From positions 1-20,489 of IMG/VR virus record IMGVR_UViG_3300044522_000214: a stretch of DNA of 20,489 bases; one strand, 5' to 3'. The DNA comes from a virus. Each line of letters starts with the position of its first letter. Position 1 is the stretch's first letter. Under the pieces are notes generated by a model. That model searched no databases and was not told where the DNA came from. It saw nothing but the letters and a program-made list of their open reading frames with translations. This document shows positions 92 to 18,948 of this stretch, piece by piece. The translations under genes were made by a program, and so were the position numbers.

Positions 92-2914
92 TTAACAAGT
101 GTATGCTTCTTGTACTGAAGCCCCGTTGCCGTAGTTACTTATGGATACTGAGTACTCATTTACGCAAGGAGTCTGTCCAATAACTCCCGAAGAGTTAGCG
201 TAGAAACTAAAGTACCCTAGACCACCATTACAGTAAGTAAAAGAACCATCAACGTAATATCCGTAGTCGTAGGCAATGATGTCATATACCTTACATACCT
301 GAATAGCTGTACAGGAAGCTACTGCGTTAGCGTAGTTCTGCCCATCAGTAGGGAAGTTAGCGTCAGCCGTTGCGTTGGCTCCAGCTTGATTAAGTATTCC
401 TGTGTACGAGTAAGTATTTGAGTAATTAACCACCCCTCCAACATATCCTGCCCCGCAGTTATTTCTTGTAAAGTTTTGACTCCTGTAAGCATAGAACGTA
501 CAAGGGTCTCCTCCGAATTCATTAGATGTGAATTGTACTTCGTCCGCTCCATTCCTATATTGGTACTGTTCTCCGCCCCCACAACCATTTGCATCTTCGT
601 ATACATTATAATTTGTTCCATTAAAGCATCTAACTCCTCTAGATATACCATAACTACTATTTGTATTGCAGCCTCCTCTTGATGGCTCTGTCGTTCCAAC
701 GCTACCTCCATTAACAATGTATTGCCCACCTGTTCCAGAACATCTATTTCCATCATAATATACTGTAAATGTTGTGCAGTTTACGCAAGTATCATAACCT
801 GTAGGGGAAAGTTCTTGTGAGCCTGCATCGCAACCACAGTTGACTCTATTTGTAGCCCCTGTAGCAACTCCATTACAATTATATTTCTGCACAAACACCT
901 TGTCTCTATTGTCACAAACAAAATCTGTATAGTATGTACCTTGACAATTTTGATTACAACCACAAGAATTGTATTCTGTTGGAGTTGTGTTTCTATAAGA
1001 ACCGTCGCAAGTATTTCTTTCTCTATTGCCTAGGTAATTACATCCACTACAGGTAGGGTCTGCAACAAAACAACAACAAGTTCCGTTAGCGTTAGCAAAG
1101 TTCTGTCCGTTAGCATTTACGTTTGCTACTGCCATATTATAAGCAGCTGTTGTGGCAGTAGATACTGCTTCTTCGCAAGATGTTGTAGATACGGCAGAGG
1201 CATACTGAGTAGGAGACGCATAGTTTACAGTTCCGTTACCATAACAGTTAGCCCCGCAGTTGTTTCTAGTAAAGTTAGCGTTATAGTTGCCCGCTACATT
1301 AGATGCAGTCCAAGTACAGAACCCCTCCGCATTAAATTTTGCTTGCAAGCCTGCGTCATAAGCAGCATCTGATATTGCTTGTGCTTGAGCGTTAGCGTCT
1401 GCTTGGGAAATAGTTGATGTGTATGTGCCTGTTGTTGTATAAGAAGGGTATCCTGCTTGGTTTAAAAAGACTGTACTTCCTACTACACTTGTTGTAGGAT
1501 AGCAATTATTGGTACAGTTGTTTTTAGTTCCTACTGACTGCCTAGTTGTTGTCGCATTTCCCACAAAAGTACAAGCTCCGTTAGAAGGTGCGGTAGCTCC
1601 AACATTAACGTTGTTTACATAATAGTTATTATATGTAGTAGAGTTGACATTGGTATCTCTAAAAACTTCATAAGTTACACTAGAAGAACAAGTAAAGTAT
1701 CCTTGAGATGCTAATGTAGGAGTTCTCTTAAAGTCAATGTAGTTAGTCTTAGTGGCACTTGTGGCAAAGGAATTAGTTCCTGATACGCTTGCAGTATTAC
1801 TAATATTAGTATTTTCTCCTGTAGCCCTTACCCTTATTTTAATAGGATAACTGCCTTGATAAACAACGCTATTAGCATTTGCATTTACTGTAACTGTCTG
1901 CCCCGATACAGATGCAGTCCAACCAGAAGGAACCTCAGTAATAGAGACAAATGTTACTCCTGATGGTAAAACGTCGGTAAACACTACCCCCGTTGCAGCA
2001 ACTGTACTAGAGTTAGATACTACCATTGAGTAGTCAAACTCTTGATTAAATGTTATTGTTGTTGGATATGGGTTTGTCTTTGTTATTGTTAAAGACGCAT
2101 AATTCAAACTAATATAAAAGTCGGAAGATAAAGGACTATTTACCGCATAGTATGCAGACGATACTGTTGGCATATAAACTATAGCAGGCGGAGGTGCTCC
2201 ATTGTCCCAGCCTGAATTTAAATAAGATGTCATTAAGACGCTTATATGATATGCGGCAGGATTGGTAGATATATTATAAGGATTTGTAGGTTCAGTAACT
2301 GTAATAGTTAATGTGTTGCCAACCAACGTAGGTGCTACACTTGGTGTAAAAGAAGTTCCGCCTCTTAGGTGGGAAATTATAGGTTGCCCCCCTGATAAAA
2401 CACAAGACAATCCGTTAGGTATTGTTAGAGTAAACACAACGTTACCTTGAGTAACTATTGTGCCCGTATTTATAAAGTGGAATGCGTAGTAAAATTGTTG
2501 TCCAATTGTATAGTTAGATGCTTGACTTCCTAATGAACCAGAAGAGTTTTGAGATACCTTATACCCTGTACTGCTAAAATTAGCCTTATTTAAATTACTT
2601 AAAGCATTATAAGCAGCAGGTAATATAGTCCTTGCCTCGTACCCAATGTTAGGTCTAAATGGGGTTATATCTTGCTTTGCTACTAATTGTAGTCCTGTTG
2701 GATTTGAAGGAGAATTAAATTTTGCACTATAATACGGATTGCTAGTATCAAACCAAAAAGTTCCAGCCATCCTAGTCATACTCATTGCCTTCTTAGGCTC
2801 ACCCATAGAAATAGCATTCTCTCTAGGCACTAATTTAAAGTCATTAATTGCGTCAGTAATATTCTCGGCAGTAATGATTTTTAACGCAGGAATGGTGTCC
2901 CAATTAGTTGGCAT
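92..2914 (-). CDS. cysteine-rich surface/appendage protein with DUF11-like and DUF5977-like repeats
   Basis: This 940-residue protein has no signal peptide or membrane segment at its N-terminus. The first ~100 residues (TNWDTIPALKIITAENITDA...) look like a phage virion-attachment region, which is inference. Residues ~130-235 and ~275-390 are beta-rich Ig-like segments; the second matches the DUF11 pattern (LTITKTNP...VFTDVLPSGVTFVSIT). From ~405 to the end there are about 34 cysteines. Two segments (~547 and ~812) share FTRNNCGA followed by a VNY and a GQNxANAxxxC tail, resembling the DUF5977 repeats of Bacteroidota surface proteins. Shorter modules of the form YxDxxxxC...NG...C alternate with them. 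The ATG at 2914 overlaps the end of the upstream fibre gene by 11 bases, suggesting translational coupling. The likely role is a virion adhesin or tail accessory protein; specificity is unknown. Confidence 0.7.
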   Translation of the reverse strand: MPTNWDTIPALKIITAENITDAINDFKLVPRENAISMGEPKKAMSMTRMAGTFWFDTSNPYYSAKFNSPSNPTGLQLVAKQDITPFRPNIGYEARTILPAAYNALSNLNKANFSSTGYKVSQNSSGSLGSQASNYTIGQQFYYAFHFINTGTIVTQGNVVFTLTIPNGLSCVLSGGQPIISHLRGGTSFTPSVAPTLVGNTLTITVTEPTNPYNISTNPAAYHISVLMTSYLNSGWDNGAPPPAIVYMPTVSSAYYAVNSPLSSDFYISLNYASLTITKTNPYPTTITFNQEFDYSMVVSNSSTVAATGVVFTDVLPSGVTFVSITEVPSGWTASVSGQTVTVNANANSVVYQGSYPIKIRVRATGENTNISNTASVSGTNSFATSATKTNYIDFKRTPTLASQGYFTCSSSVTYEVFRDTNVNSTTYNNYYVNNVNVGATAPSNGACTFVGNATTTRQSVGTKNNCTNNCYPTTSVVGSTVFLNQAGYPSYTTTGTYTSTISQADANAQAQAISDAAYDAGLQAKFNAEGFCTWTASNVAGNYNANFTRNNCGANCYGNGTVNYASPTQYASAVSTTSCEEAVSTATTAAYNMAVANVNANGQNFANANGTCCCFVADPTCSGCNYLGNRERNTCDGSYRNTTPTEYNSCGCNQNCQGTYYTDFVCDNRDKVFVQKYNCNGVATGATNRVNCGCDAGSQELSPTGYDTCVNCTTFTVYYDGNRCSGTGGQYIVNGGSVGTTEPSRGGCNTNSSYGISRGVRCFNGTNYNVYEDANGCGGGEQYQYRNGADEVQFTSNEFGGDPCTFYAYRSQNFTRNNCGAGYVGGVVNYSNTYSYTGILNQAGANATADANFPTDGQNYANAVASCTAIQVCKVYDIIAYDYGYYVDGSFTYCNGGLGYFSFYANSSGVIGQTPCVNEYSVSISNYGNGASVQEAYTC

Positions 2915-5096
2915 TTAATTTTCTTTCTAGTTCTGCAATCCGATTCTGTAAAGATAATATAAGTAGCGTATGTGTATCTGTATAGTTGACAGATAAATAT
3001 CCTTCGCTGTCTGTGTTAACTAACTCAGGACATAAATCGTGTACCTCTTGAGCTGAGTATCCGTAACGAATTTTGTCCTTGTCGTGGGTAGTTCTTAAGT
3101 ACTTAATTACATCTAATTTAGACAAATCTACGTTAGGATTTTCTCCTAGTACCGTCTTTAGTCGAATGTCAGAAGATTCAAAGAATGAAGTTGCCGTAAT
3201 AACAAATCCTGTAGCGTCCGAGCCTATCGCACAAACTTGTGCTAAAGAAGGAACTGCCCCTGCTGTAGAGTTTATTGTTACTGCTCCTGTGCTGCTACTA
3301 ATTGTTATTCCTGTTCCTGCTACAATAGAAGTAACCCCTCCTTGATAAGAAGGTATGTTAAGAACTCCTGTAGAAGAACTATATGTTGCTGCACCACTTG
3401 TCCCCGTTGTAGTTAAACTTATTGCAGCCCTTGCTTGAGCAACTGTGATGTAGTTGGCTGGATTTAATGCATCATAAGGAGTAAATCCTAGTGCAGTAGT
3501 TACATTTCCACTTGTAAGCGTTAATGTACCACCTAGCGTCAGGTTGCCGCTTGTTGTAACTGTTCCCGTAAGAGTAAGCCCACTAACTGTTCCTGTACCA
3601 CTAACACTTGTAACTGTTCCTGTATTATTAGTATATCCACTTGGGTTAGTAGAGTTATAAGGAGTAAATCCTAAAGCAGTAGTAACGTCAGACGATTGTA
3701 GTACTACATCCCCTGTTCTACCAAATACACTTGTAACCGTATCTGTAAACGAAGCTGTTAGCGTAGTTCCGTTCTGCTTAGTTAATGTTATTGTCTTTGT
3801 TGTAGTGCCCGATACAGCTAACGTTATAGCAGACCTGTCATATGCTGTATTCCAATTAGAGATGTTAGTGTTGGTAATACCAAACGAAGGCGATGCTGTA
3901 AAGATTGGGTCTGTCTCAGCGTTAGAAATTTGCTGATAAGTAATATTGGTTGTGCCAATAGTTATAGCAGTTAGGTTTGTATTTCCGTACCTAACGTTAA
4001 TAAAAGTACCTGCTGTAATTAGGTACTGATAACCCCTAAGTTCTGCGTCAGAATCTGAGTCAGCAGACCTTGTCCACCCTCCCGACGCTGCGTCATAGAC
4101 ACCGTTCTCGGTAGCATTTGTTTGCCCTATAACAAGTATTCTATCTCCCGCTATAGGAGTATATCCATTGACAGCAGAAAGTCCGCTAAGACCAACGTTT
4201 GAGGTTGCTACGGTCTTGATAGAAGCTCCAAGTCTTAATCCTGTTAAGACGGTGTCGTCAACGTACTGCTTAGAGGCTGCGTGGGTTGCATCTACAGGTG
4301 TTACAGGAACATTTACGTTTGAGGTGAACGTCCAAGTGTTATTAGCTGTGATGCCTGCTGCGTTGCCAATAACGGGAGTAATTAAACTTGTTGAAGCTCT
4401 TGCTGTACCGTTAACATCTAATGTGTAGGCAGGAGTATTTGTTAGAATACCTAACCTATTGTTGGTATCATTCCAAAAGAAATGGGCAGGGTCTGAGGCT
4501 AAGGTAGTTCCGTCTGAGAACAGTACTGAGCCAGTCACAGGCATTGTAAAGGTTGTAACTAAGCCCGTATCACCAATACCAAGTATCCTTGTCTTTGTTG
4601 TCGGACTTGCGGGAATTAACCCAGCAATGATAAGTGAGAATAAGTTAATAATATTAAGCTTAGTAGCGTCTCCTAAGTAGATAGTCTTTAGAGTAGAACT
4701 TGCGGAGGCTACTAGTAGGCTATTTATTCTATACCCGTTAGGTAAGCTAGATGAGCCTATGTTAATGGAGTCTCCCTTTACGTCTAATAGATAAGAAGGC
4801 GACTTGGTGTTTAACCCGATTTTGTTAGCGTTCTGATATGCAACAGAGTTAATTAAATTATCCTGCGTGCTGTTAGGCATCGTAAGATAATTAGGGTCTG
4901 CCTCTATAGCTACGCTCGTCTCAATAGTAGTGTTAATAACCTCCGCTTTAGGCTGCTTTCCTGAAGGGATTACAACGGGGGCAGAGACTACTGTAGTGGT
5001 GGTTGCTGATATAAAGTCAGATACGGGGACAGATACTACTGCCCCCGCATTGTCAACCATCATAATTGAAACTATATTATCGGGTATTTTTGCCAT
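2904..5096 (-). CDS. tail fibre protein with C-terminal Peptidase_S74 chaperone domain
   Basis: This 730-residue fibre has a distinct N-terminus (MAKIPDNIVSIMMVDNAGAV), probably the virion anchor. Its middle is repetitive, with motifs common in phage fibres: VTTALGFTPYNxxNP, a GVTSIVAGTGI segment, and a module around GVYDAASGGWTRSADS. A linker near residue 225 reads LGILTNTPAYTLDVNGTARA, like the N-termini of the two fibres at 6350-9309. The C-terminus carries an S74 domain with SDIRLK at residue 642; the Ser and the Lys five residues later are the known catalytic dyad positions for self-cleavage. A short coiled coil (LQNRIAELERKL) ends the protein. S74 domains are known to assist fibre trimerisation and then release themselves. 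The stop overlaps the start of the next gene by 11 bases. The preceding gene lies 62 bp upstream. Confidence 0.85.
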   Translation of the reverse strand: MAKIPDNIVSIMMVDNAGAVVSVPVSDFISATTTTVVSAPVVIPSGKQPKAEVINTTIETSVAIEADPNYLTMPNSTQDNLINSVAYQNANKIGLNTKSPSYLLDVKGDSINIGSSSLPNGYRINSLLVASASSTLKTIYLGDATKLNIINLFSLIIAGLIPASPTTKTRILGIGDTGLVTTFTMPVTGSVLFSDGTTLASDPAHFFWNDTNNRLGILTNTPAYTLDVNGTARASTSLITPVIGNAAGITANNTWTFTSNVNVPVTPVDATHAASKQYVDDTVLTGLRLGASIKTVATSNVGLSGLSAVNGYTPIAGDRILVIGQTNATENGVYDAASGGWTRSADSDSDAELRGYQYLITAGTFINVRYGNTNLTAITIGTTNITYQQISNAETDPIFTASPSFGITNTNISNWNTAYDRSAITLAVSGTTTKTITLTKQNGTTLTASFTDTVTSVFGRTGDVVLQSSDVTTALGFTPYNSTNPSGYTNNTGTVTSVSGTGTVSGLTLTGTVTTSGNLTLGGTLTLTSGNVTTALGFTPYDALNPANYITVAQARAAISLTTTGTSGAATYSSSTGVLNIPSYQGGVTSIVAGTGITISSSTGAVTINSTAGAVPSLAQVCAIGSDATGFVITATSFFESSDIRLKTVLGENPNVDLSKLDVIKYLRTTHDKDKIRYGYSAQEVHDLCPELVNTDSEGYLSVNYTDTHTLLILSLQNRIAELERKLNAN

Positions 5097-5158: not shown

Positions 5159-5533
5159 TTATACTTCTAGTGTTGGTTCTTCAACGATAGGTTCTTCAAC
5201 GATAGGAGCTTCTACTACAGGAACCCAAGGAAGGTGTTTAACCACCACAGGAGGGTTGATTTGATTATCAATATCCTGCTGTAGTCCTGCATCAATAGAC
5301 TCTACATCTAATCCTGCATCAAGCCAAGAACATACTTGCTCAAATGTCAAGTCTGGATAGGCTGTGAAGTCTGTCTCTGAAGGAGTGGCACACCCCATTG
5401 TTCCATAAGAATACGCTGTGTATTCTCCTTCTACTGCTGTTCTACCATAGTGAACTGTGATAACTACATCAGAAAGTCCGTCGAGAGTCGGAGCTGTATC
5501 AAGTTGATATACGCTCCAAAAAAAGTTTGTCAT
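5159..5533 (-). CDS. small phage protein resembling DUF7936 (tail-fibre-associated, function unknown)
   Basis: This 124-residue protein begins MTNFFWSVYQLDTAP. I chose the ATG at 5533 over an upstream in-frame ATG at 5578, because the latter would overlap the end of the GIY-YIG gene and the family-like sequence begins at the former. An A-rich AAAAAACAAATAAAT leader precedes it. The layout (VVITVHYG...GEYTAYSYGTMG...YPDLTFEQVCSWLD...QIDNQINPP...LPW) matches, from memory, small proteins of many phages that lie beside fibre genes and end in a GLPW-like motif. Here the LPW is followed by a Val/Glu/Pro-rich tail containing PIVEE twice, encoded by an exact 15-bp tandem repeat. No catalytic or membrane features are visible. 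Its position between fibre genes suggests a virion or fibre-assembly role. Confidence 0.65.
   Translation of the reverse strand: MTNFFWSVYQLDTAPTLDGLSDVVITVHYGRTAVEGEYTAYSYGTMGCATPSETDFTAYPDLTFEQVCSWLDAGLDVESIDAGLQQDIDNQINPPVVVKHLPWVPVVEAPIVEEPIVEEPTLEV
5176..5205 (-). repeat. exact 15-bp tandem duplication in the coding tail
   Basis: The 15-base unit GTTCTTCAACGATAG (plus strand) occurs twice in a row, at 5176-5190 and 5191-5205. It is in frame and duplicates the PIVEE peptide near the C-terminus of the DUF7936-like protein. A diverged third unit follows (GAGCTTCTAC...). It fits replication slippage. Confidence 0.8.
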
Positions 5534-5546
5534 ATTTATTTGTTTT

Positions 5547-6341
5547 TTAATGTTTATAGTATTCCCACTTAAATCCATAAGCTAATGGTTTTTGCCCTTT
5601 TAAGCATCTGACAATATTTGAACTATGATTGGTTTCAAATAATTCTAATGCAGCTAATCTAGCAGACTTCCATTCTTTTATAAATATGCCATCTTTAGAA
5701 TATTGTATAATAGGTATACTTCTATTTTCAGACATTTTTAATTTACAAGCATCTGACATTTTCTTGCCTAATGCCCCCTCACTTAATCTTTTTCTATGTT
5801 CTTCTGTTCTAATATAAATATAAGATGGGCTTTTGCCTTTTCTTCTATCCGACATTTTTTGTCTTTCTTCTTGGCTAAGAGGTTTTCTATTAAGTATTTT
5901 TTTACCTTTTTTAAAATCTCCTATTTTTCTTTTTACTTCCTCCGTATGCTTACAACCTTTTCTAGCTAAAGATATTTTTAATTTTGTCTCTTCTGTGCAT
6001 TTTCTACCTTTATTTCCAGCACCAATTTTTTTCTTAGATTCTTCTGAAAAAACAATACCAAGTGAACCTTCTCCGCCATTAGTCATATTAACTAAAGTTC
6101 CTAATCCTAAATCAATTCTTCCATACAACGATATGAATTCTATTTCTTTTTGTTTAGCCTCTTCATAACTTATATCATCAAACAATATTTCTACTCTAAT
6201 TGGTGTTTTATTTACTACGTTATGCCAATATTTATTTCTATTAAGATGAGATGTACATCTATTTGGATATGCATCGCACGAAATTCCAATATAGAATGGT
6301 TCATTCTTATCTAACCTAATGTGTCTGTATACGTAAGCCAT
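5547..6341 (-). CDS. GIY-YIG homing endonuclease with NUMOD3 and NUMOD1-like DNA-binding modules
   Basis: This 264-residue protein starts at the ATG at 6341 (MAYVYRHIRL). A TTG two codons upstream is possible but less likely. The N-terminal ~90 residues form a GIY-YIG nuclease domain: VYR and FYIGIS supply the two signature strands, an Arg-containing helix (PNRCTSHLNR) follows, then a Glu in KEIEFISLYG, and LVNMTNGGEG closes the domain. Residues ~95-205 hold repeated Lys-rich NUMOD3-type modules (FSEESKKKIGAGNKGR, CTEETKLKISLARKG, HTEEVKRKIG). The C-terminus (IIQYSKDGIFIKEWKSARLAA...) resembles a NUMOD1/helix-turn-helix module. This is the architecture of free-standing phage homing endonucleases of the I-TevI/SegA type. 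It lies 8 bp after the fibre gene at 6350 and 13 bp before the DUF7936-like gene. It probably cleaves related phage genomes lacking it and helps spread the neighbouring fibre genes. Confidence 0.9.
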   Translation of the reverse strand: MAYVYRHIRLDKNEPFYIGISCDAYPNRCTSHLNRNKYWHNVVNKTPIRVEILFDDISYEEAKQKEIEFISLYGRIDLGLGTLVNMTNGGEGSLGIVFSEESKKKIGAGNKGRKCTEETKLKISLARKGCKHTEEVKRKIGDFKKGKKILNRKPLSQEERQKMSDRRKGKSPSYIYIRTEEHRKRLSEGALGKKMSDACKLKMSENRSIPIIQYSKDGIFIKEWKSARLAALELFETNHSSNIVRCLKGQKPLAYGFKWEYYKH

Positions 6342-6349
6342 AGGCAAAT

Positions 6350-7756
6350 TTACTTAATTTTGTTCGAAATAATTGTTATTTCTGCTTTTAATTCTTGGAT
6401 GGCTTTGACTAGTATAGCTGAAATTGAACCATAATCAATTCCTAGATATTCTCCACTTGTATCGTCTACTACTTGAGGTAGTATTTCTAATATTTCTTGA
6501 GCAATAAATCCGATTCTTTCTTTTTGTTTTTCGTCACTTATAAATTTATAAGAAACAGGACGCAATAAAGAAACCGTATCTAATCCATTCAATGATATTA
6601 TGTTTATGTCTTTTTTTAATCTTGCATCAGAACCATTTACCCAAGTTGTTCCATTGCAATATGCTCCAGTTGCCCCACCAACAAATGCTTGAATCGAACC
6701 ATAATCATTATAGAATCCAGCAAGATTATTAGGCAATGAAGCTGGCTCTAATACCAAATCTGATCCATTTCTTAAAAATAATCCTGCTCCTCCTGTTGGA
6801 TGCCAAACTTGAAGAGTTCCAAGTCCATTGTCTGATGTACCACCCATAAGAACTCTACCCCCACTTGTAATTCGCATACGTTCGTTTAGTGAAGCCCCAC
6901 TAGAAAAAATTATGTTTGTTAATCCAGCTAATGCTATATCATTATTTGAACCTCCAATTACTAAATGATATGCTGAACCAACATAACCATAACCATTTCC
7001 ATTTCTTTTAAAAGATAAGTAGCCTCCATTTGCATCTGTACTATTTAATTCAAGTGAAACTGAACTTGTAGTAGAAGCAATTATTTGTCCAGCAGAAGTA
7101 ATTCGCATACGTTCAGTTATTGTACCATTTTGAGTTGAAAATGAAAGATAACCTAATGCACTGCCAGAAGTTCCATTTTCTTTTCTTCCTGCAATTGCTC
7201 CAAATGCAGTACTATTTGAAGTGCCTAAATAATACCCACCAAGTGATAATTGCCCACCATAATCAGCAGTTGATGAATTAGTTGTTTGTATAAATAACTG
7301 ACCATAACTATCTGTAACTCCATTAGAACCACTTACTTGTATATTTGTAACTGGCGAACTCGTTCCAATACCTACATTCCCAGATGGATTAATATATAAT
7401 CTATTGACAAATGTCTCACCAGTTTGTGTTGTTGTTTGTCTTATTCCAAAGTCACCATAAACATCTGTGTCGTTTCTTATTTGCCATCTTCTGCTTGCTG
7501 CATCAGCTGCGTTAGTAAAATTTAATCCACCAAGATTGCTGATAATATTTTGGATAGTTAACTGCCCATAAGGCGAAGTCGTTCCAATCCCCACATTACC
7601 ACTAGCAGTTGCTAAGTAAGTAGAAGTAGAAGTCCTAGCAATTCCTGTCACATCAAAACTATACGTAGGCGAAGCGTTATTAATACCAATTCTACCATTG
7701 GTGATGTCGGCAGTAATGTAATCTGTCAGGAAGGATAAATTAGTATTTTTTGACAT
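6350..7756 (-). CDS. tail fibre / receptor-binding protein with Peptidase_S74 domain (shorter paralogue)
   Basis: This 468-residue protein shares its N-terminus with the neighbour at 7804-9309: xxTADxxNxRxGINNxSPxYSxDxTGxARxSTSxYLATASGxVGIGTTS. The middle contains VGIGTSSP linkers and two copies of ERMRITS, features of Bacteroidota phage and secreted fibre proteins. The C-terminal S74 domain starts at SDARLKKDI, with the candidate nucleophile Ser376 and Lys five residues on. GFIAQEILEILPQVV follows, and a short helix ends the protein. Cleavage would release a ~93-residue chaperone. The first ~50 codons are less AT-rich than the rest, suggesting an older anchor joined to newer distal modules. 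The gene lies 47 bp after the 7804-9309 gene and 8 bp before the GIY-YIG gene. The receptor cannot be predicted. Confidence 0.85.
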   Translation of the reverse strand: MSKNTNLSFLTDYITADITNGRIGINNASPTYSFDVTGIARTSTSTYLATASGNVGIGTTSPYGQLTIQNIISNLGGLNFTNAADAASRRWQIRNDTDVYGDFGIRQTTTQTGETFVNRLYINPSGNVGIGTSSPVTNIQVSGSNGVTDSYGQLFIQTTNSSTADYGGQLSLGGYYLGTSNSTAFGAIAGRKENGTSGSALGYLSFSTQNGTITERMRITSAGQIIASTTSSVSLELNSTDANGGYLSFKRNGNGYGYVGSAYHLVIGGSNNDIALAGLTNIIFSSGASLNERMRITSGGRVLMGGTSDNGLGTLQVWHPTGGAGLFLRNGSDLVLEPASLPNNLAGFYNDYGSIQAFVGGATGAYCNGTTWVNGSDARLKKDINIISLNGLDTVSLLRPVSYKFISDEKQKERIGFIAQEILEILPQVVDDTSGEYLGIDYGSISAILVKAIQELKAEITIISNKIK

Positions 7757-7780
7757 AAGTTTAACTAGTTTAAACGTTGA

Positions 7781-7798
7781 GGAGCGTTAGCGACTCAT
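7781..7798 (-). repeat. intergenic hairpin-like element, copy B
   Basis: The minus strand reads ATGAGTCGCTAACGCTCC. It can form a small stem (GAG-CG/CG-CTC with one bulged base). It resembles the element at 5130-5145 and, like it, lies just upstream of a fibre gene. Between this copy and the ATG at 7756 is a nearly palindromic GTTTAAACTAGTTAAAC stretch. No T-run follows, so termination is unlikely. Confidence 0.35.
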
Positions 7799-7803
7799 AT
7801 TAT

Positions 7804-9309
7804 TTATTTGTTTTCTAATGCTTCTATTCTATTTATTAAAGAAGTGTTTTCTGCTGATAATTCTTCAATCTTAATCATTGCTTCTTGTAAAACCTTTATT
7901 GTTGCGTGATGCAAATCTGATGTATAAATTGATTTTAATGGTATTCCATCTTCTGGAGTATCTCCCCATCCATCAGCATCTACAAATTCTGGAGCTACTG
8001 ATTCTACTTGTTGAGATATAACTCCAATATTATAATCATCGTGAGTTTGGTCTTTGTATTTAAACTTAACAATTTCAATTGCTTTAAATTTATTCCAATA
8101 AGATTCCAAAGGAATAATATCTTTTTTTGTCCTTATATCTGAAAGATTAACATTATTAGCTTGATAATTTGCTAAACCACCATTTGAACGAACTGAAAAT
8201 CTTAAAGTTGTATTATCTTCACAATCTAAAAATCTATTTGTAGTATTATTAAGTGTATTTGGATAATAAACCATTAATCCAAATGGGGATGCATTAGTAT
8301 TGGCAATTTGTAAAGAATAATTACCACTTATATTTGATCTTATTTCATGGTAAGCACCTGTAGAACTATTATAAGTTCCATCATTACTTATTTTAGTCCA
8401 CCCCCCACTTGTAATTCGCATACGTTCAGTATTAGAGGTAGAAATTTTAACTAACTGATTTGCTCCATCTATACTTACAGAACTATAGTTACTAAATGAA
8501 GAATTTCCTGTTTGAATTCGGATTATTCTTCTACCATCTTCACTTCCAACAGTTTCCATATAAACACCGCCGGTATCATTTCCTACATTCACATAGTTTG
8601 TAGTACTTCCAAGTTGTATGCTTCCCCCACTATTAATTCGCATACGTTCAGTAGCATTTGTACCAAAAATAATTGGATTAGTAGTATCTGTATATAATTC
8701 AAAAATATTATTACCAGCCGAAATCATTTGACCAGCATAAGTAGTTCCACTAATTCCAGCAGAAGTTCCAGTATTTCTAAATGCAATATTTTCGCCTACT
8801 CCAGTAGTTCTTGATAAAACTAACATTGAACCAGTTATACTAGTATTTGTATTTCCAGCTCCGTCTTTTATTACATGAAGCATTCCGGTCGGCGAACTCG
8901 TTCCAATCCCTACGTTGCCAGCAGAAGTTAATGTAAATTTAGTAGCTGTTGCTGGATTTGCTCCATTACTAATTTTAAAATTATTTGCCGCATCATATCC
9001 TAAAGACCAATCATAAGAAGGAGTTTTTATATGAATATAAGCATATCCAGTATTATCATTTGTTTGAATAATAAATGATGGATTAACACCGTATAATAAT
9101 AATGATTTATCATAATCAGCAGTAACTGAAGTAGTCCCAATTCCAACAGACCCACTTGCAGTTGCTAGGTACGCTGACGTACTTACCCTTGCAGTGCCAG
9201 TTAAATCTAAAGAATAAGCAGGGCTAACATTATTTATCCCTAAACGACTATTTGCTAAATCAGCCGTTAGTATATTGGTTAAACTATATTGATTGGATAT
9301 TTTTGTCAT
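7804..9309 (-). CDS. tail fibre / receptor-binding protein with Peptidase_S74 domain (paralogue)
   Basis: This 501-residue protein begins MTKISNQYSLTNILTADLAN and is clearly related at its N-terminus to the next fibre (6350-7756). A VGIGTTS linker near residue 55 and VGIGTSSP near residue 140 separate modules. Two ERMRI motifs precede the distal region. The S74 domain starts at SDIRTKKDI (candidate Ser390, with Lys five residues later) and continues IGVISQQVESVAPEF. A coiled coil follows (IKIEELSAENTSLINRIEALENK). The start lies one base from the stop of the 1770-residue fibre, so the two are very probably co-translated. Much of the body is very AT-rich compared with upstream fibre sequence. 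It is most likely one of several alternative or jointly displayed receptor-binding subunits. Confidence 0.85.
   Translation of the reverse strand: MTKISNQYSLTNILTADLANSRLGINNVSPAYSLDLTGTARVSTSAYLATASGSVGIGTTSVTADYDKSLLLYGVNPSFIIQTNDNTGYAYIHIKTPSYDWSLGYDAANNFKISNGANPATATKFTLTSAGNVGIGTSSPTGMLHVIKDGAGNTNTSITGSMLVLSRTTGVGENIAFRNTGTSAGISGTTYAGQMISAGNNIFELYTDTTNPIIFGTNATERMRINSGGSIQLGSTTNYVNVGNDTGGVYMETVGSEDGRRIIRIQTGNSSFSNYSSVSIDGANQLVKISTSNTERMRITSGGWTKISNDGTYNSSTGAYHEIRSNISGNYSLQIANTNASPFGLMVYYPNTLNNTTNRFLDCEDNTTLRFSVRSNGGLANYQANNVNLSDIRTKKDIIPLESYWNKFKAIEIVKFKYKDQTHDDYNIGVISQQVESVAPEFVDADGWGDTPEDGIPLKSIYTSDLHHATIKVLQEAMIKIEELSAENTSLINRIEALENK
8891..8928 (-). repeat. 38-bp linker repeat, copy 1 (partner at 9948-9985)
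   Basis: This segment, in the 7804-9309 gene, matches 9948-9985 in the preceding fibre gene at 37 of 38 positions. It encodes the AGNVGIGTSSP-type linker. It is GC-richer than the flanking AT-rich sequence. Looser versions occur near 7351-7380 and 7571-7600 in the third fibre gene. Confidence 0.8.
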
Positions 9310-9310
9310 C

Positions 9311-12300
9311 TTATTTTGCTTTTAATAAAGTCTTTAATTCTTCGATTTGAACTTGTTGTTCTTGAATGGCTTTAAATGCTAATGCAACCATATTTGGATA
9401 AGCTAATGAATCAGGACTTCCATCTTCTGCATATTGCACAAATTCAATTAATCCTAATTCGTGTACTTCCTCAGCTATTAAACCAGCAAATACTACATCG
9501 CCATCATTATTACCTTTATAATAAACTGGTTTTAATTGATTAACAATATTCAACCCTTTATCATAATCTTCAACACTATTTTTGTATTTTAATGATGATG
9601 TGCTTCTAAAAATAGTACCACCAACAGTCATATGTACATTAGCCGCATTTGCAGTTGTTGGTGTTGCTAACATTGAAACACTTCCATCAGAATTAATTCG
9701 CATACGTTCGGTAAAACTACCACCATTTGGTCTTGTGTAGAAATTTATATATCCACCATAATCGCCACTTGTACCATTATCTTTCACCCCTTTGATAAAT
9801 CCAAAGTCGGTATAAGTGCCAGATGTATCATATTTTCCACCAAATGAAATACCTCCTCCAACATTTGCAGTCATTGCTGCTGAATCAAAACTTCTAATAT
9901 TAATAAAACCACCTAATAATGCACCTTCAACTTGTAATAAACTTGCTGGCGTACTCGTTCCAATCCCTACGTTGCCAGCAGAAGTAATTCGCATACGTTC
10001 AGAAACTCCTGAATTAGTACCAGTTCCAAATAACATATCTCCATCAGAACCACCTCCTCTATTATATCTAATATACCCAGCTATTGTATTTGATACTGAA
10101 TCATAATCTCTATACCAATTTATACCATAAGCACTTGCTCCAGCATTAAAAGTAGAATATAATCTTAAATTAGGTTTATTTGCAGATGTTGATTTTAATT
10201 CTAATAAATCATTAGGAGAAGTTGTTCCAACACCTAAATTTGTACCATTATCAAATATTAAACTATTACCAATTGTAGTACTTGAAGTAAATTTAGCGTG
10301 ATAATTTGTAGTTCCACTTAATGTAGCAGCCTTGGCATTTAATTGCGTTTGGATAGCACTTGTAACACCCTTTACATAAGAAAGTTCTGTAAGGGATGGG
10401 TAGGTGGCAACGGGTAAACTTGCTATTGTGCCACTTGCAGTAAAATAAGCTAACTCATTTATTGTCCCTGCACCACTTATGCCATTAACACTTGCTGTGT
10501 AGTTAATGCTCTGTACTTGGTCTCCTACTGTAGAAGCTACTGTAAGAACAAATGTCGTTCCATTAGTAGCTGTAAACTCTGAAGAGGTTAACTTTGAACC
10601 ATTAACAAATACATCTATAAGTCCTACTATGTAGCCATTAGTAACTGTGAACGTAGTCTGTGCTGCTGTTGCAGTATAGTCTTGCACGTTTCTTGATGTT
10701 GGCAAAGCTGCAATGCTTGACGTATAGTTTAATATAGTCACAGCATCTCCTGCCAATAGACCTATGCCTAATACTACTGTTGTGCCATTAGTGGCTGTGT
10801 AGTCTGTAGGCAGATATCTAACTCCATTGACATATACATCCACTAAGCCTACTACATAACCTCCCGTAATAGTGAAGGTAGTTTGTGCGGCAGTAGCAAC
10901 GAAATTTTCTTCGGCTCTTGCAGATGGATTGGTAGATATAGTAAAGGTTCTGTCGGCAGATAAGTCGTAAGTAGTTCCGTTAATCGTTATGTTACGAGTT
11001 GAAGGAACGCCTCCTAGTCCTGTTAGGGTATAGGTAGGAATATTCAGTACGTTAGAAACTAATGTAGCCGCACCACTTGAACCTGTAACTGTTAACGAAG
11101 TAATTCTGTTTGTGTAAGCCGTATCCCAAGTTGCAATAGATGCAGTTGTTGGTATTTCATAGCCTGCACTCAAACTAAATACTCCTGTAGTGTTAGTATA
11201 TGTTAGTCCTGTAGCTGAAGAAGATAGACCCGTTAATGTTATATAATTAGAACCGTTTGTTAGTTGGCTATTATTAGTAGGAATTGTTATTACTCCTGTA
11301 GTAGAATTATATCCTCCACTACCTGCTACAAAACTTAATGACGCTAATGTTATGTAATTAGAGCCGTTTGTTAAATGAGTATTGTTTGTAGGAATTGTTA
11401 TAACCCCTGTAGTATTATTATACGCTCCACTTCCTGCTACGAAACTTAATGCAGTTAACGCAATATAATTATTTGGATTAGTCGCATTATAAGGTGTAAA
11501 ACCTAACGTTGTCGCAATAGACTTCTTCTCCCATAAACTATTAGATGTATTATATGCTATAATATCATTATTAGCAGGAGATTGAGCCGATACATTATGG
11601 ATTTCATCTAGTTCATATCCGTTCTGAATATTAACCTCTATCTGTCCTAATGTTGGATGACTGCGTGTAACAATACCTATGTAAACTAAATGGATAGGTG
11701 CATATTGCTTTGTAGCAGTATACGTTCCTGCAGTAGCCCCCGACAAGTAAAGTTGTTGCCCTTCAGTAAATGCAGATGTATCTAATCCAATTAAGTCTCC
11801 TGCTATTACAACGTAACCTTCGGCATTATTAGCAATATTTGCTTGACATAATCCAAAGGTCTGTGCTGACGTAGAATCTCCTGTAGCTAATGCTTTTGAT
11901 ACAATTGGATTGTTTCCTGTAGCACCACTTATATAGACAACTGTTCCTTTTGTTAAGGTAGCACCTGTCTGATTTCTTATAAGCCTAACCAAAGAACCTG
12001 ACTGCCCAGCCACAGGAAAAGTAATTAAGCTTCCATCACCCGCTACATATTGAGCAGTTGTTCCCGTAGGGTTTGGATAGTAAGTAGCAGTATCATAAGA
12101 TATTGTACCACTTGTAGACTTAACGAATCCTGTGCCTGATAGGGTTGCCTGTTTTGCATTTAACGCTGATTGTAAATCAGTCTGATTAGATAATGTTCCT
12201 GTGATGCCACCCCATATAGTTCCAACCGTAGGAGAAACCTCAATGTAAGTAGCACCGCTCCAACGGTATATCTTATTTGTATCTAATGCAACGTATATCT

Positions 12301-14623
12301 TACCCGTCTCTCCTGTTGCAGGTAGTGCCGCTAAGTTAGCAAACTCCAACACATCGTCTACATAAGAAGGTAGCTGTGTAGAAGGAACTAAGCCTCCTCC
12401 ATCAAGACTCGCATATCCATTAGCAATGCCTTTATTTGCTGCGTTCTCAGGGGTAAACCCTAGGGCAGTAGTTACGTTACCGCTTGTGATACCCGTTATG
12501 TATCCAGCCCCATTTGTAATTTGATTGTTATTAGTAGGGATAGTTATAACACCTGTGGTATTATTATATGCTCCGCTCCCTGCTGCAAAACTTAAAGAAG
12601 TCAAGGCAATATAAGCGGACGGATTCGTTGCGTTGTATGGGGTATACGTTAACGCTGTTGTAACATCAGAACTTGTTAAGGTGATTGCACCTGTCCTTGT
12701 ATTAAAGCTCGTTACACCGCCTTGATAAGCGGGTATATTTAAAACCCCTGTTGCATTGTCATAAGTAGCACTTCCACTTGTTCCTGTAGTAGTAAGACTT
12801 ATAGCAGCTCGTGCCCTAGCGTCAGTATAATAAAGGTTAGTAACCTCAGTAACCAATGCTGTAGTATAGTCTCCCGCTGTAGGTGTAATAGCACCTGTTC
12901 TTGTATTAAACGAGGTAACACCTGCTGCTATAGTCCAACTCCTATCAGCAGACAAGTCAAAGCTAACTCCGTTAATGGTTAGATTTCTATTGGTAGGAAC
13001 TGGCGTATAAGTTAATGCTGTTGTGACATCTGCACTAGACAAAACTATCGCACCAGTCCTAGTATTAAAGGAGGTTACACCCCCAATATAAGAAGGGATA
13101 TTTAATACCCCTGTTGTGTTATCGTAAGTAGCCGCTCCTGTAGTGCCTGTAGTAGTTAAGCTTATAGAAGTCCTAGCTCTTGCAGTAGTAAAGTACAGGT
13201 TTGTATTCTCGGGTACGTTTGCAGTATTTAAGGTAGCCAAGGCTCCTGCTCCTGTAATATACTCAGCAGATGTACCACCCGCTGTAATAGCAAGCGTACC
13301 TGCAGTAGTTATAGGAGAACCTGTAACGCTAAATGCCGCAGGAACAGTTAAAGCTACGCTTGTAACAGTACCTACGTTAGCAGTAGCACCCGCAGCAATA
13401 CCGTCTAACTTGGTTTTATCAGACGCACTCATCGCCCCTGCACTACCTGTAGTAGCAGCAGCTAACGACAACGCTTGCGTAGAGATACTTAGTCCATTAG
13501 CAGTACCAATCGTTACAGGGTTATGAAACCTTGAGTCGTTACCTTGAGCAAATGTATTTATTAGTGTGCCAAAGGTAGGCGAGTAGGTAATATTATTATT
13601 TGTAACTATAGGCACTAGTGCCGCATTTCCCGAAACAAATGTTAAAGTACTTCCTAGTGGAACAGCGTCTGTATTTGTGCCGTCAGATATATTGAATGAG
13701 TTAGCCCCCGAAACAGCTAACGAAAATGTTAGCATCTTAGTTGACTGGTAGGTATATGTTCCTGAATAAGGCTCAAGTATTGACAACAACTCTCTTAGGA
13801 TAGGCTCAGAACCATCTTGTGTGGTGGTCTGGTGCATAGCAATCAAGTGAGAATATAACGCAATAACTAAGTCATACTGCTCACTTAATAAATTAAATTG
13901 GGTGTCATTGGTTTCCTTGTATGCATCTATAATTACCCTATAAGCATTAATCTTTTGAACTAACTCTAGTTGATTAGGACATTTTCTAATATCAAACGTC
14001 TTAGAGAAAGTTCTTGTATATAAGATTGTTAGCCAAGCGTTAGAAGTATGGGTATATGCTACAGATACAGCACTTGTAGGAGTATAAACCCCCTCATAAT
14101 AATTTGCTCCAGAAACAACCGTAACTGTATTTGTTGACGTAGATGTTACAGGAGAACTTCCTGACACCTCAGAGGTGCTAGGGAATGAACCAGTAATAGT
14201 TCTTGTAAGTGCCCCCGTAAAACTACCAATAGGAGAATAAGACGTAAGGTCTTTAAATACTACTTCGGGAGTAATAACATCTGAAAAGTTAGTAATTCCA
14301 TTAGCAGGCTCAATCCAATTGAAATCAAATGTTCTTACTAATGGGGTCTGCCCAGCAGAAAGATTATTTATAACCGCATAAGATATAGTATAATTACCTG
14401 TAACTACGTTGCCACTTGTATCTACCTCACAAGGAATATCTATAAAATTTCCAGCAGTAGATATATCAGGAGTACTAAAGTCAGGTAAGTTTCTAACAAC
14501 TCCGTTAGGAAACTCTACTTTAAAGCATCCTTTGCCGTATGTAAAGCCTGTTGAGGTGTCTGTTAAGCGAATAACTTTTGTCGCAACGCTTATTCTAAAT
14601 TGTATATCGAATGTTACTGCCAT
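9311..14623 (-). CDS. large tail fibre protein (1770 aa) with C-terminal Peptidase_S74 chaperone domain
   Basis: The N-terminal ~300 residues (MAVTFDIQFRISVATKVIRL...) form a non-repetitive, probably virion-proximal region with a helical stretch at ~220-290. A long repetitive shaft follows: GVTSFNTRTGAI units, TTALxxTPYNATNP knob-type motifs, ARARxxISLTTTGTxGxATYDN blocks, and SGAYNNTTGVITIPTNN blocks. Two adjacent ~65-residue repeats (ATAAQTTFT...DVYVNG / ...DVFVNG) lie at ~1240-1375. The distal part has VGVGTTSP, ERMRITSAGNVGIGTSTP and ERMRINSDG linkers, then an S74 domain. SSLKYK places the candidate Ser at 1676 and Lys at 1681, before FAGLIAEEV and a terminal coiled coil. Cleavage would release ~95 residues. 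A weak promoter lies 22 nt upstream of the ATG. Base composition drops sharply in GC at about 10320, suggesting that the tip was replaced. It is likely a trimeric host-recognition fibre. Confidence 0.9.
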   Translation of the reverse strand: MAVTFDIQFRISVATKVIRLTDTSTGFTYGKGCFKVEFPNGVVRNLPDFSTPDISTAGNFIDIPCEVDTSGNVVTGNYTISYAVINNLSAGQTPLVRTFDFNWIEPANGITNFSDVITPEVVFKDLTSYSPIGSFTGALTRTITGSFPSTSEVSGSSPVTSTSTNTVTVVSGANYYEGVYTPTSAVSVAYTHTSNAWLTILYTRTFSKTFDIRKCPNQLELVQKINAYRVIIDAYKETNDTQFNLLSEQYDLVIALYSHLIAMHQTTTQDGSEPILRELLSILEPYSGTYTYQSTKMLTFSLAVSGANSFNISDGTNTDAVPLGSTLTFVSGNAALVPIVTNNNITYSPTFGTLINTFAQGNDSRFHNPVTIGTANGLSISTQALSLAAATTGSAGAMSASDKTKLDGIAAGATANVGTVTSVALTVPAAFSVTGSPITTAGTLAITAGGTSAEYITGAGALATLNTANVPENTNLYFTTARARTSISLTTTGTTGAATYDNTTGVLNIPSYIGGVTSFNTRTGAIVLSSADVTTALTYTPVPTNRNLTINGVSFDLSADRSWTIAAGVTSFNTRTGAITPTAGDYTTALVTEVTNLYYTDARARAAISLTTTGTSGSATYDNATGVLNIPAYQGGVTSFNTRTGAITLTSSDVTTALTYTPYNATNPSAYIALTSLSFAAGSGAYNNTTGVITIPTNNNQITNGAGYITGITSGNVTTALGFTPENAANKGIANGYASLDGGGLVPSTQLPSYVDDVLEFANLAALPATGETGKIYVALDTNKIYRWSGATYIEVSPTVGTIWGGITGTLSNQTDLQSALNAKQATLSGTGFVKSTSGTISYDTATYYPNPTGTTAQYVAGDGSLITFPVAGQSGSLVRLIRNQTGATLTKGTVVYISGATGNNPIVSKALATGDSTSAQTFGLCQANIANNAEGYVVIAGDLIGLDTSAFTEGQQLYLSGATAGTYTATKQYAPIHLVYIGIVTRSHPTLGQIEVNIQNGYELDEIHNVSAQSPANNDIIAYNTSNSLWEKKSIATTLGFTPYNATNPNNYIALTALSFVAGSGAYNNTTGVITIPTNNTHLTNGSNYITLASLSFVAGSGGYNSTTGVITIPTNNSQLTNGSNYITLTGLSSSATGLTYTNTTGVFSLSAGYEIPTTASIATWDTAYTNRITSLTVTGSSGAATLVSNVLNIPTYTLTGLGGVPSTRNITINGTTYDLSADRTFTISTNPSARAEENFVATAAQTTFTITGGYVVGLVDVYVNGVRYLPTDYTATNGTTVVLGIGLLAGDAVTILNYTSSIAALPTSRNVQDYTATAAQTTFTVTNGYIVGLIDVFVNGSKLTSSEFTATNGTTFVLTVASTVGDQVQSINYTASVNGISGAGTINELAYFTASGTIASLPVATYPSLTELSYVKGVTSAIQTQLNAKAATLSGTTNYHAKFTSSTTIGNSLIFDNGTNLGVGTTSPNDLLELKSTSANKPNLRLYSTFNAGASAYGINWYRDYDSVSNTIAGYIRYNRGGGSDGDMLFGTGTNSGVSERMRITSAGNVGIGTSTPASLLQVEGALLGGFINIRSFDSAAMTANVGGGISFGGKYDTSGTYTDFGFIKGVKDNGTSGDYGGYINFYTRPNGGSFTERMRINSDGSVSMLATPTTANAANVHMTVGGTIFRSTSSLKYKNSVEDYDKGLNIVNQLKPVYYKGNNDGDVVFAGLIAEEVHELGLIEFVQYAEDGSPDSLAYPNMVALAFKAIQEQQVQIEELKTLLKAK
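9948..9985 (-). repeat. 38-bp linker repeat, copy 2 (partner at 8891-8928)
   Basis: This is the second copy of the near-identical linker, here directly abutting an ERMRI repeat at 9985-10000. A single mismatch separates the two copies, although the neighbouring modules are unrelated in sequence. Confidence 0.8.
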
Positions 14624-15578: not shown

Positions 15579-16355
15579 TTATTGTTTGGTTTTTAAATTA
15601 ACTCCGTCAAAAGTAGCACCTTTTTTTAAATTATCCAACGCCCATAGTGGTTGAAGATTAGAATGGTGATTTAATAAAATAATTTCTTCTTGAGAATTTG
15701 CAACAGCAAGTGGCTTTATGTGGTCTACGTGCCATCCATCTATCCCATAATTATCCCAACTCATTCCTTCGGTAAATTGATTTTCTATGTAAATTTTTAA
15801 CTCTTCAAACGAGCATCCTACTATTTCTTGTGTGCGTTTTGATTTTTCTCCAAGCATATACCTTGACACCATAGTCCTTGTATTCTTTATTAGTTTATAT
15901 AAAGGGTCTGTGTCGCAGCGGTATTTTGTATAAGCGGATTGTCTTTTATTTATTTTAGGTCTATTATTTTTAGCATATTGAGATTTCTTAATTGATAGTT
16001 TTTCTGAATTATTTTCTCTGTATTCTTTTTGTTTTTGAAAGACTTTTTTGGGATTATCTATTGCCCATTGCCTCTTGTATTCGGCTATTCTTAATTTATT
16101 TTGTTCTCGATATTGTTTATCGTATTCTGCTTTTGATTCTTTTGTTTTTTCGGAACGAGCTTTTACTCGTGCAATGTTTTCTTCTCTTTTTTTATAATAA
16201 GCTAACCTAGCCCCTTCTTTTCTTTTTTCTAAATTTTTTAACCTATCTTCTTTCTGCTTTATATTAGTGCATTTTCTACAAGAACCCATATTGGGCTTAG
16301 CATACAAATCAATCGTTAATTCTTCATTACAAGTTCTACAAATTTTTGTTCTCAT
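15579..16355 (-). CDS. HNH homing-type endonuclease with N-terminal zinc ribbon
   Basis: This 258-residue protein has an N-terminal zinc-ribbon pattern (C6-x2-C9 ... C26-x2-C29). A long, very basic helical region follows (~35-150, rich in Lys, Arg, Glu and Gln), likely contacting DNA. The C-terminal HNH domain starts at WHVDHIKPL (208-216) and continues with NHHSNLQPLWALDNLKKG; the DH pair, the Asn/His stretch and the final Asn-Lys-Lys are the usual ββα-metal residues. The gene sits between the capsid gene's terminator and the 272-residue gene. It has its own TATATTTG promoter box 19 nt upstream. Its last codons (K-T-K-Q-stop) are encoded by AAAACCAAACAATAA, the leader string of the next gene, which suggests a precise insertion. 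It probably acts as a mobile homing endonuclease rather than in DNA packaging, given its place far from any visible terminase. Confidence 0.88.
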   Translation of the reverse strand: MRTKICRTCNEELTIDLYAKPNMGSCRKCTNIKQKEDRLKNLEKRKEGARLAYYKKREENIARVKARSEKTKESKAEYDKQYREQNKLRIAEYKRQWAIDNPKKVFQKQKEYRENNSEKLSIKKSQYAKNNRPKINKRQSAYTKYRCDTDPLYKLIKNTRTMVSRYMLGEKSKRTQEIVGCSFEELKIYIENQFTEGMSWDNYGIDGWHVDHIKPLAVANSQEEIILLNHHSNLQPLWALDNLKKGATFDGVNLKTKQ

Positions 16356-16469: not shown

Positions 16470-17801
16470 TTAAATATTATATTTAATGAAGTGCTCGTTT
16501 CCTACCGACTCAAATCCTTCGATTGAAGTGTACACTATATCAAGTGTATCAGTATCAGAAGTAGGAGTTGGAGCAAGTCCACCAAGCATTTTCTCGCGGA
16601 ATCTAGAGTTTAAGCCTTCTGGCATCTCTAAGTAGCGAACCATCATACGATCAACTTGACCACCACCTTGCTCAACTTTAATCTTTCCTGCAGGAACTAA
16701 GTAAGCTTCCTTAGCGTAGTTTACGTTAGTAGCAGTAGAAGTAACTTGAGGATGAGATAAAGCATTTAAACGCTTCTTGTGGAAAGTACGTCCGTAAGCA
16801 GCAAGAGACTGAACGCCTAATGCAATAGCTACATCTTTCTTACCACCGAATGCTCCGTAGTTGATAGCTCCGTTAATGAATTGAGTAGCACCAGTAATTG
16901 ATGTATCAAAAGCATTATCAAAGTCAGCGCCAGCCCATAATTGATACTCAGAAGGACAACGGTTAGCATCCATCAAACGAGATAAAGCAGCTAAGTCAGA
17001 TAAGGCAACTGTACCAGAAGATGCAACGTTAGAAGTAATACCTCCAGCGTTTATGATAGTATCACGCAATCCACGAGTTGTGTTAATTGCATTACCAGCA
17101 GCATCAGTCAAGCCAGCAGACTCACGACCAAACAATACTGAATAAAGGATATCCATTCTATGCTTCAAATAAGCATCGTGTTGTTGCTTTAAGAAGTAGT
17201 AAGGCTTTCCTTTGAATTCAACCTCAATCTTAGAACCATAAGCGATATCTGTGATAGATGTCTTAGTCTTGAAAATTTGAAGTTTATTAGAACGCTTAAT
17301 CAAATCTGATTTACGCATTGTGTTAGAAGAAGTTCCTTCAGCATAAGCATTAGAGAAGAAAGACAACTTAGCACCAGTTGCAGCCGCAGGAATTGCGTCA
17401 GCAGAGTTAACAGGCTTGATAGTAAGAACTGAATCAGTAGCTGAAGAAGCTGCAGAAACATAACCTACAACACCGTTAGCGAACAAAATTAATTCTCCTA
17501 CTACAGGCTTAACAGAAGTTGAACCTACAATAGTGATGTCTACAGACGCACCAGCAGAACCCGCAGAAGTCCCTGGAGTTTTAACTGTAGCCATAGCATA
17601 CAAGAAGTTGTTTTGTACTGTAAAATATTCTGTTTGAGCAGTAGCCTTAGCCTTACCTGTCCAATCCATAATATCAAGCATAGACGCTTCTTCATCATAG
17701 ATGTCAAGAACGTCCTTTAAAATTTCACGCTGCTCTAGCGTGTTTGTGAAAGAAACCGTACTCAAAAAAGTACGATCTATATTACCTGCTGCAATAGCCA
17801 T
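16470..17801 (-). CDS. probable major capsid protein
   Basis: This 443-residue protein starts MAIAAGNIDRTFLSTVSFTN. The start region is followed by acidic, helical DVLDIYDEEASMLDIMDWTG, then beta-rich segments, a central helix with LKQQHDAYLKHRMDILYSVLFGRES, the loop TTRGLRDTIINAGG, and a C-terminal half with EQGGGQVDRMMVRYLEMPEG. This arrangement and length fit HK97-fold coat proteins that need no N-terminal protease domain. The gene follows the portal and an acidic scaffold-like gene, the classical head order, and is followed by a strong terminator, as for highly expressed coat genes. Its codon use is less AT-biased than its neighbours, consistent with high expression. The family assignment rests on order and overall appearance rather than on a diagnostic motif. 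No clear promoter box precedes it; the scaffold promoter probably serves both. Confidence 0.75.
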   Translation of the reverse strand: MAIAAGNIDRTFLSTVSFTNTLEQREILKDVLDIYDEEASMLDIMDWTGKAKATAQTEYFTVQNNFLYAMATVKTPGTSAGSAGASVDITIVGSTSVKPVVGELILFANGVVGYVSAASSATDSVLTIKPVNSADAIPAAATGAKLSFFSNAYAEGTSSNTMRKSDLIKRSNKLQIFKTKTSITDIAYGSKIEVEFKGKPYYFLKQQHDAYLKHRMDILYSVLFGRESAGLTDAAGNAINTTRGLRDTIINAGGITSNVASSGTVALSDLAALSRLMDANRCPSEYQLWAGADFDNAFDTSITGATQFINGAINYGAFGGKKDVAIALGVQSLAAYGRTFHKKRLNALSHPQVTSTATNVNYAKEAYLVPAGKIKVEQGGGQVDRMMVRYLEMPEGLNSRFREKMLGGLAPTPTSDTDTLDIVYTSIEGFESVGNEHFIKYNI

Positions 17802-17828
17802 TTTGATAATAATTTAAATGTGAATAAC

Positions 17829-18914: not shown

Positions 18915-18936
18915 ATTATTGTTTGGTTTGATTATG

Positions 18937-18944: not shown

Positions 18945-18948
18945 TAAA

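Follow-up and report, generated by a model that had tools for sequence, protein, structure and literature searches.

A cysteine-dense DUF11/DUF5977 protein encoded beside a tail-fibre gene in a phage of a probable flavobacterial host

The window, which is the whole stretch of DNA analysed here (20,489 nt; virus record IMGVR_UViG_3300044522_000214), carries a head module and a set of fibre genes, and its leftmost gene is a cysteine-rich gene that overlaps one of them:

92-2914 (-): DUF11 and DUF5977 gene, 940 aa with 35 cysteines (complete ORF, Pfam, cysteine count)
2904-2914 (-): 11-nt overlap of the cysteine-rich gene with the upstream fibre gene, ATGCCAACTAA (ORF coordinates)
2904-5096 (-): upstream fibre gene, 730 aa (PHROGs)
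5159-14623 (-): fibre cassette with a DUF7936 gene, a GIY-YIG/NUMOD3 homing endonuclease and three S74-type fibre genes (Pfam, PHROGs)
16470-17801 (-): SU10-type major capsid protein (Pfam, PHROGs)
17829-18914 (-): unassigned gene in the scaffold position
18949-20409 (-): portal (Pfam, PHROGs), which closes the head module (16470-20409)

The ORF at 92-2914 has its ATG start and its stop inside the contig. The gene at 2904-5096 matches tail fibre, long tail fibre distal subunit and head decoration families in PHROGs, and its Pfam S74 match is below the cut-off (17 of 22 bits), as is that of the gene at 9311-14623 (20.5 of 22 bits). An earlier note on this DNA, made from the sequence alone, described the cysteine-rich gene as coupled to a fibre gene, and the 11-nt overlap bears this out; by ORF coordinates, the same overlap with the fibre gene occurs in two relatives, L007 and L008 (contigs of 65.7 and 64.0 kb). 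In both, the order is fibre gene, cysteine-rich gene, a 149-aa gene, lysis-like genes (called by inspection) and tail genes. Three loci of a sister lineage (L090-L092) hold a cysteine-rich protein in the equivalent slot, and the gene is placed among virion genes in the window, in L007 and L008 and in the sister loci. The portal relatives belong to phages of Cellulophaga (phi38:1), Flavobacterium (elemo) and Maribacter and to one unassigned phage, all at less than 60% identity (77 of 77 records), so the host is probably a flavobacterium. Phages phi38:1 and elemoF have the gene order portal, scaffold-position gene, capsid, and then virion proteins.

In the 940-aa protein, 34 of the 35 cysteines fall within residues 402-940 (window 92-1710), exactly the interval for which the earlier note had counted about 34. 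Cysteine makes up 6.3% of this part versus 0.47% of the remaining ORFs on the minus strand, and at the rate of those ORFs the binomial probability of at least 34 cysteines in 539 residues is 7e-27; the observation is correct and goes beyond chance. Histidine is scarce (0.3% of the protein). The lack of a signal peptide also agrees with our result: by a crude hydropathy rule (signal-like start; 10-residue Kyte-Doolittle mean of at least 2), no signal-like hydrophobic N-terminus was found, the best 10-residue mean being 1.4.

A Pfam search, which had been proposed as a check, placed both DUF5977 (PF19404; three stretches, 77.7 bits, cut-off 25) and DUF11 (PF01345; one domain, 37.3 bits, cut-off 24.6) above cut-off, and these are the only Pfam families in the protein; the NCBIfam model TIGR01451 (DUF11-type repeat) covers two stretches (48.8 bits, cut-off 24). 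There is no cell-surface anchor domain among the Pfam matches, and Peptidase_S74, present in the neighbours, is not matched in the protein itself (Pfam, E 0.1). PHROGs gave no match at E 0.1, nor did 50,697 phage records for the gene or PDB sequence searches, and a scan of genome contigs with the whole cysteine part returned 46 candidate stretches and no relative. The protein can be divided into the following segments:

2585-2914 (-): residues 1-110, N-terminal part with lower conservation and exchange between relatives (dN/dS, dS)
2099-2584 (-): residues 111-272, beta-rich, probable first DUF11-like Ig-type domain (TIGR01451, DUF11-segment profile)
1772-2092 (-): residues 275-381, DUF11 domain (Pfam PF01345)
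1568-1711 (-): residues 402-449, short module M1, 2 cysteines (alignment)
1307-1567 (-): residues 450-536, DUF5977-like unit D1, 3 cysteines (Pfam, local profile)
1076-1288 (-): residues 543-613, DUF5977-like unit D2, 4 cysteines (Pfam, profiles)
815-1075 (-): residues 614-700, 12-cysteine block, phage-only in the sample (profile)
668-814 (-): residues 701-749, short module M2, 4 cysteines, replaced in L007 (alignment, dN)
497-667 (-): residues 750-806, short module M3, 3 cysteines (alignment, pLDDT)
308-496 (-): residues 807-869, DUF5977 unit D3, 2 cysteines (best Pfam stretch, 811-869)
95-307 (-): residues 870-940, conserved 4-cysteine tail ending in cysteine (alignment, cysteine columns)

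DUF5977-like units had been said to alternate with shorter modules. Both kinds are present, the short ones as three copies (M1-M3, about residues 402-449, 701-749 and 750-806) of the pattern YxDxN..C..VNG..Ps.g.C, but the alternation is not strict, since it is incomplete at the 12-cysteine block (614-700) and the 4-cysteine tail (870-940). The cysteine pair that flanks DUF5977, a feature seen in this analysis rather than in Pfam's text, was recovered by profile in D2 and D3; in D1 it is assigned from position. The block of 12 cysteines contains close CxC, CxxC and CCC spacings, and cysteine is the last residue of the protein in 11 of 11 aligned rows. In profile searches from which duplicates (L001, L012, L013, L015, L016, L086-L089 and L094) were excluded, the local DUF5977 profile found 86 domains in 31 loci and the DUF11-segment profile 14 domain matches in 8 loci; the profile of the 12-cysteine block matched 14 phage loci and no cell loci, and the M modules and the C-terminal tail had no match in cell loci.

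Eleven relatives of the gene were found in viral contigs. All 34 cysteines are kept in six of them (L002-L006 and L008) and 31 of 34 in L007, which has lost three and gained one; the partial loci L009, L010 and L011 keep 29 of 29, 26 of 26 and 5 of 5. L014, found after the main set and counted separately from the cysteine columns, keeps 28 of 29. The other residues of the cysteine part are 67-93% identical among relatives, and TGT/TGC variation occurs at 27 of 35 cysteine codon positions, so what is preserved is the amino acid and not the nucleotide sequence. The sister proteins (550-556 aa) align to the cysteine part at 44-46% identity, keep 31, 31 and 30 of the 34 cysteines and also end in cysteine. 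They have no DUF11 arm; the cysteine part is thus the core that is conserved, and the arm is exchangeable. The number of C-terminal cysteines is even in 8 of 8 sequences that span the cysteine part completely, namely the window and L002-L008 (34 in seven, 32 in L007), and we rejected this parity as a proof of disulfides: it is weak, because only one independent change is involved and the sister proteins total 33, 33 and 35, so that at least one cysteine must be unpaired within the chain there. Directly after the cysteine-rich gene, two sister loci carry a gene of 93-94 aa with 6 cysteines (L090:6431-6712 and L091:2375-2659), and the L090 product has no Pfam match.

Across segments with measurable divergence, dN/dS is between 0.03 and 0.53. 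Residues 1-110 have values of 0.27-0.40 (six comparisons with measurable divergence), and residues 809-940, i.e. the tail and most of D3, have 0.07-0.12 in all seven comparisons. Between L005 and L006, dS is 0.014 in residues 1-110 and 0.41-1.34 elsewhere, and such sharp shifts within one pair are a sign of recombination. In L007, another sequence takes the place of residues 701-808 (dN about 0.67-0.735), and conservation resumes after it.

Using an alignment of five units as query, we collected 67 chromosomal DUF5977 loci, nearly all from Bacteroidota by record title (L052 comes from a bacterium with no phylum stated), and 26 viral loci, comprising the 11 with this gene, the three of the sister slot and 12 others. 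Repeats of this kind had been called typical of secreted Bacteroidota proteins, and the chromosomal ORFs are in line with this: by the crude hydropathy rule 57 of 67 have a signal-like start (a few, e.g. L023, L054 and L083, on stretches far from the start), five have none and five run off the contig. Of the five that lack a signal-like start, L019 and L020 resemble proviruses: L020 encodes an endolysin and, by inspection, has a gene order like that of the viral contig L098, and L019 is similar to L020, also by inspection. Among 295 DUF5977 units, the two cysteine columns are filled in 216 of 216 and 203 of 203 cell units and in 72 of 76 and 70 of 70 phage units, as would be expected if the pair has a structural role in exported proteins. 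The unit can also exist without the pair, since the phage protein of L105, in which DUF5977 is matched at 23.8 bits, slightly under the cut-off of 25, has no cysteine at all.

Homologues restricted to non-structural loci would have spoken against a virion role, and virion genes of unrelated phages do carry DUF5977. By annotation, this holds for 4 of the 12 other viral loci: a virion structural protein in L103, a gene after a tape-measure gene in L105 and before one in L093, and a gene beside a baseplate wedge gene in L097. By inspection, the gene order of L093 and L097 recurs in L096 and L099, and in L100 a neighbour of the DUF5977 gene matches a tail-slot gene of L007 (E 2e-6). No structural neighbour was seen for the DUF5977 genes of L095, L098, L101 and L104; the neighbour in L095 carries Big_9 and cadherin-like domains. 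The protein of the viral locus L102 has a signal-like start. In phage QdP_Psa3, DUF5977 is fused to Tail_P2_I (21.3 of 20.6 bits) between baseplate wedge and fibre genes; csAssE-Sib has 12 DUF5977 stretches alongside BACON domains, and there another DUF5977 gene adjoins a putative tail fibre (with annotated variable/template repeats) and a reverse transcriptase. PAU gp21 contains one copy. DUF5977 thus turns up repeatedly in tail and fibre loci of phages. In the literature searched, beyond which most subscription literature lies, DUF5977 in phage virions seems little discussed, and nothing was found on cysteine-rich proteins of Bacteroidota or Flavobacterium phages or on csAssE-Sib.

A further phage protein, seen in L101:9132-12161 and L104:5011-7098, contains 13 DUF5977 stretches and 37 cysteines in 1,010 residues and runs off the locus; it is 97.5% identical to a human faecal phage contig, MT838154, and another DUF5977 gene and small cysteine-rich genes lie upstream. 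A virion-module protein of another phage (L093:3181-6387) combines DUF5977 with SprB repeats, the repeat of the Flavobacterium gliding adhesin.

Capture of the gene from a host surface protein, as the earlier note proposed, is unsupported so far. When D1, D2 and D3 were scored against all other loci, the six top-scoring loci outside the family for D3, the best DUF5977 unit, were all phage, and the best for D2 was chromosomal (L052); overall, there is no difference between the scores of phage loci and those of cell loci (Mann-Whitney p 1.0 for D3, 0.20 for D2 and 0.50 for D1). The 12-cysteine block, the M modules and the tail, as described above, have no cell match. The same proposal was right in outline on the location of the gene and on the lack of export.

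Structure prediction, another suggested check, worked for one part of the protein. Residues 700-872 fold at pLDDT 91.2 with a pTM of only 0.65 (alignment of 89 rows; 14 long rows and 75 selected DUF5977 units), but the full-length model (11 rows) is of low confidence (pLDDT 35.8, pTM 0.23). The 700-872 model predicts compact small domains, with M2 and M3 beta-rich (M3 pLDDT 83-96 by blocks of ten); D3 is modelled as strands followed by one long helix (model residues 144-166), and its two cysteines would lie one behind the first strand and the other behind the helix. With this model, Foldseek found no PDB entry at or below E 0.001, the lowest E being 1.1. The best VIA-align Z is 3.7, mostly over model residues 51-100, so the fold of DUF5977 itself is barely probed and we do not claim a new fold. 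Searched against BFVD, the model matched best with H9NBP8, a protein of 951 aa (E 0.039, probability 1.00) that is presumably gp21 of phage PAU, which has equal length.

The protein can be compared with several known systems. Secreted Bacteroidota DUF5977 proteins have the same unit of 60-65 residues with two conserved cysteines, repeated near the C-terminus, but they are mostly longer than 1,100 aa with signal-like starts, whereas the phage protein has no such start and adds M, 12-cysteine and tail modules of its own, which have no match in those loci. Like the bacterial fibrillar adhesins, among whose stalk domains DUF5977 is listed in a published survey (PMC8286594), it is a multi-domain repeat protein with a stalk-class domain; unlike them, it is encoded by a phage and has no signal-like start or cell anchor, and Pfam recognises no adhesive domain in it. 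With virion-displayed Ig-like proteins (Hoc-type, of the bacteriophage adherence to mucus model) it shares a phage structural locus and an Ig-type DUF11 domain, but it adds a cysteine-dense rod of modules and is not a capsid decoration by sequence. The DUF5977/BACON protein of csAssE-Sib and the DUF5977/Tail_P2_I protein of QdP_Psa3 likewise carry DUF5977 in tail or fibre neighbourhoods, with other partner domains, and no relation beyond the DUF5977 units was seen in the searches made. For binding to extracellular glycans, mucin binding by the flavobacterial phage FCL-2 (PMC6867891) is a precedent for the idea only.

On balance, we lean, by a narrow preference, towards a virion-attached fibre or adhesin of a Bacteroidota phage whose disulfides form after lysis; its virion location, attaching end, disulfides, time of oxidation and adhesive function are what we infer from the evidence above. 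The protein would belong to the tail-fibre apparatus of a podovirus-like phage as an accessory structural component. Its first 400 residues (the variable 110 and one or two DUF11 Ig-type domains) may form an arm, probably joining the fibre or virion, and the last 540 a rod (M1-D1-D2-12-cysteine block-M2-M3-D3-tail) in which each module would be pinned by its conserved cysteines and which might touch the bacterial envelope or extracellular glycans. The bacterial cytoplasm is generally reducing, and the protein would be made there without a signal peptide and packed on the virion; because of these two circumstances, oxidation would wait for lysis, when the particle meets an oxidising medium and disulfides could form that stiffen and protect the rod outside the cell. 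How disulfides form had been raised as a question by the earlier note, and it is a real one: the cysteines behave as structural residues, and the four redox families searched for (thioredoxin, glutaredoxin, Erv1/Alr and DsbA) had no match at E 0.1 in 3 of 3 relatives' records (64-66 kb), which are possibly incomplete, the Erv1 profile's control matching in only 1 of 14 genomes. This absence fits oxidation at lysis. A stronger version, which we regard as doubtful, is a redox-latched fibre with up to 17 possible disulfides that hardens and turns adhesive only on release, with DUF5977 as a shared exchange module. If it were true, lysis itself would be the maturation switch, the phage would build its rod with no oxidase of its own found, and DUF5977 would be exchanged between Bacteroidota surface proteins and phages.

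The cysteines could instead be cytoplasmic ligands of zinc or iron-sulfur and form no disulfides, as synthesis in a reducing compartment and the close spacings of the 12-cysteine block might suggest. We consider this very unlikely: no Pfam metal-binding family was matched, histidine is scarce, and the cysteine pair is universal in the sampled cell units, which come from the 67 chromosomal loci, mostly (57) with signal-like starts; for the last two reasons disulfides are the favoured reading over metal. A non-virion role, i.e. release at lysis or carriage in the fibre operon for another purpose, is also very unlikely, since the N-terminus is not signal-like and the gene overlaps a fibre gene. 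DUF5977 genes do follow lysis-type genes, namely an endolysin gene in the provirus-like L020 and a lysozyme-like gene in L098 (by eye), but the cysteine-rich gene keeps the equivalent slot in both lineages, and in another phage DUF5977 is fused to Tail_P2_I.

Within the virion, the protein might be a host-receptor-binding tip whose cysteine modules recognise a specific bacterial surface receptor, with no adhesion to the environment. The gene is the last in the fibre cassette, and the replacement of residues 701-808 in L007 with later parts conserved resembles many exchangeable tips. Against this, residues 809-940 are among the most constrained parts, which is unusual for an exposed specificity tip, and separate S74 fibres are present, so we think a tip rather unlikely. 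For the virion-attached fibre or adhesin, the interest is that such dense cysteine scaffolds are expected in exported proteins, yet the phage makes this one in the cytoplasm. If the protein is on virions, it would offer a testable case of lysis-triggered disulfide formation, link an uncharacterised Bacteroidota surface domain, DUF5977, to tails of several unrelated phage groups, and provide a sequence marker for possibly adhesive environmental phages.

The fibre cassette itself differs between the relatives. There are three S74 fibre genes in the window (6350-14623) versus one large gene in L008 (L008:2206-7395), which suggests cassette turnover. GIY-YIG/NUMOD3 homing endonucleases with the common N-terminus MAYVYRHIRLDKNEPFYIGI are found in the window (5547-6347), L007 (L007:16124-16789) and L008 (L008:16057-16872). 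In the window this gene lies before the DUF7936 gene, but in L007 and L008 it is flanked by tail genes; the element has thus changed place within the phage group. A second endonuclease-like gene (15579-16355; 258 aa, with C-terminal HNH-like residues by eye) is located between the capsid gene and a 272-aa gene in the window, and is absent there in L008.
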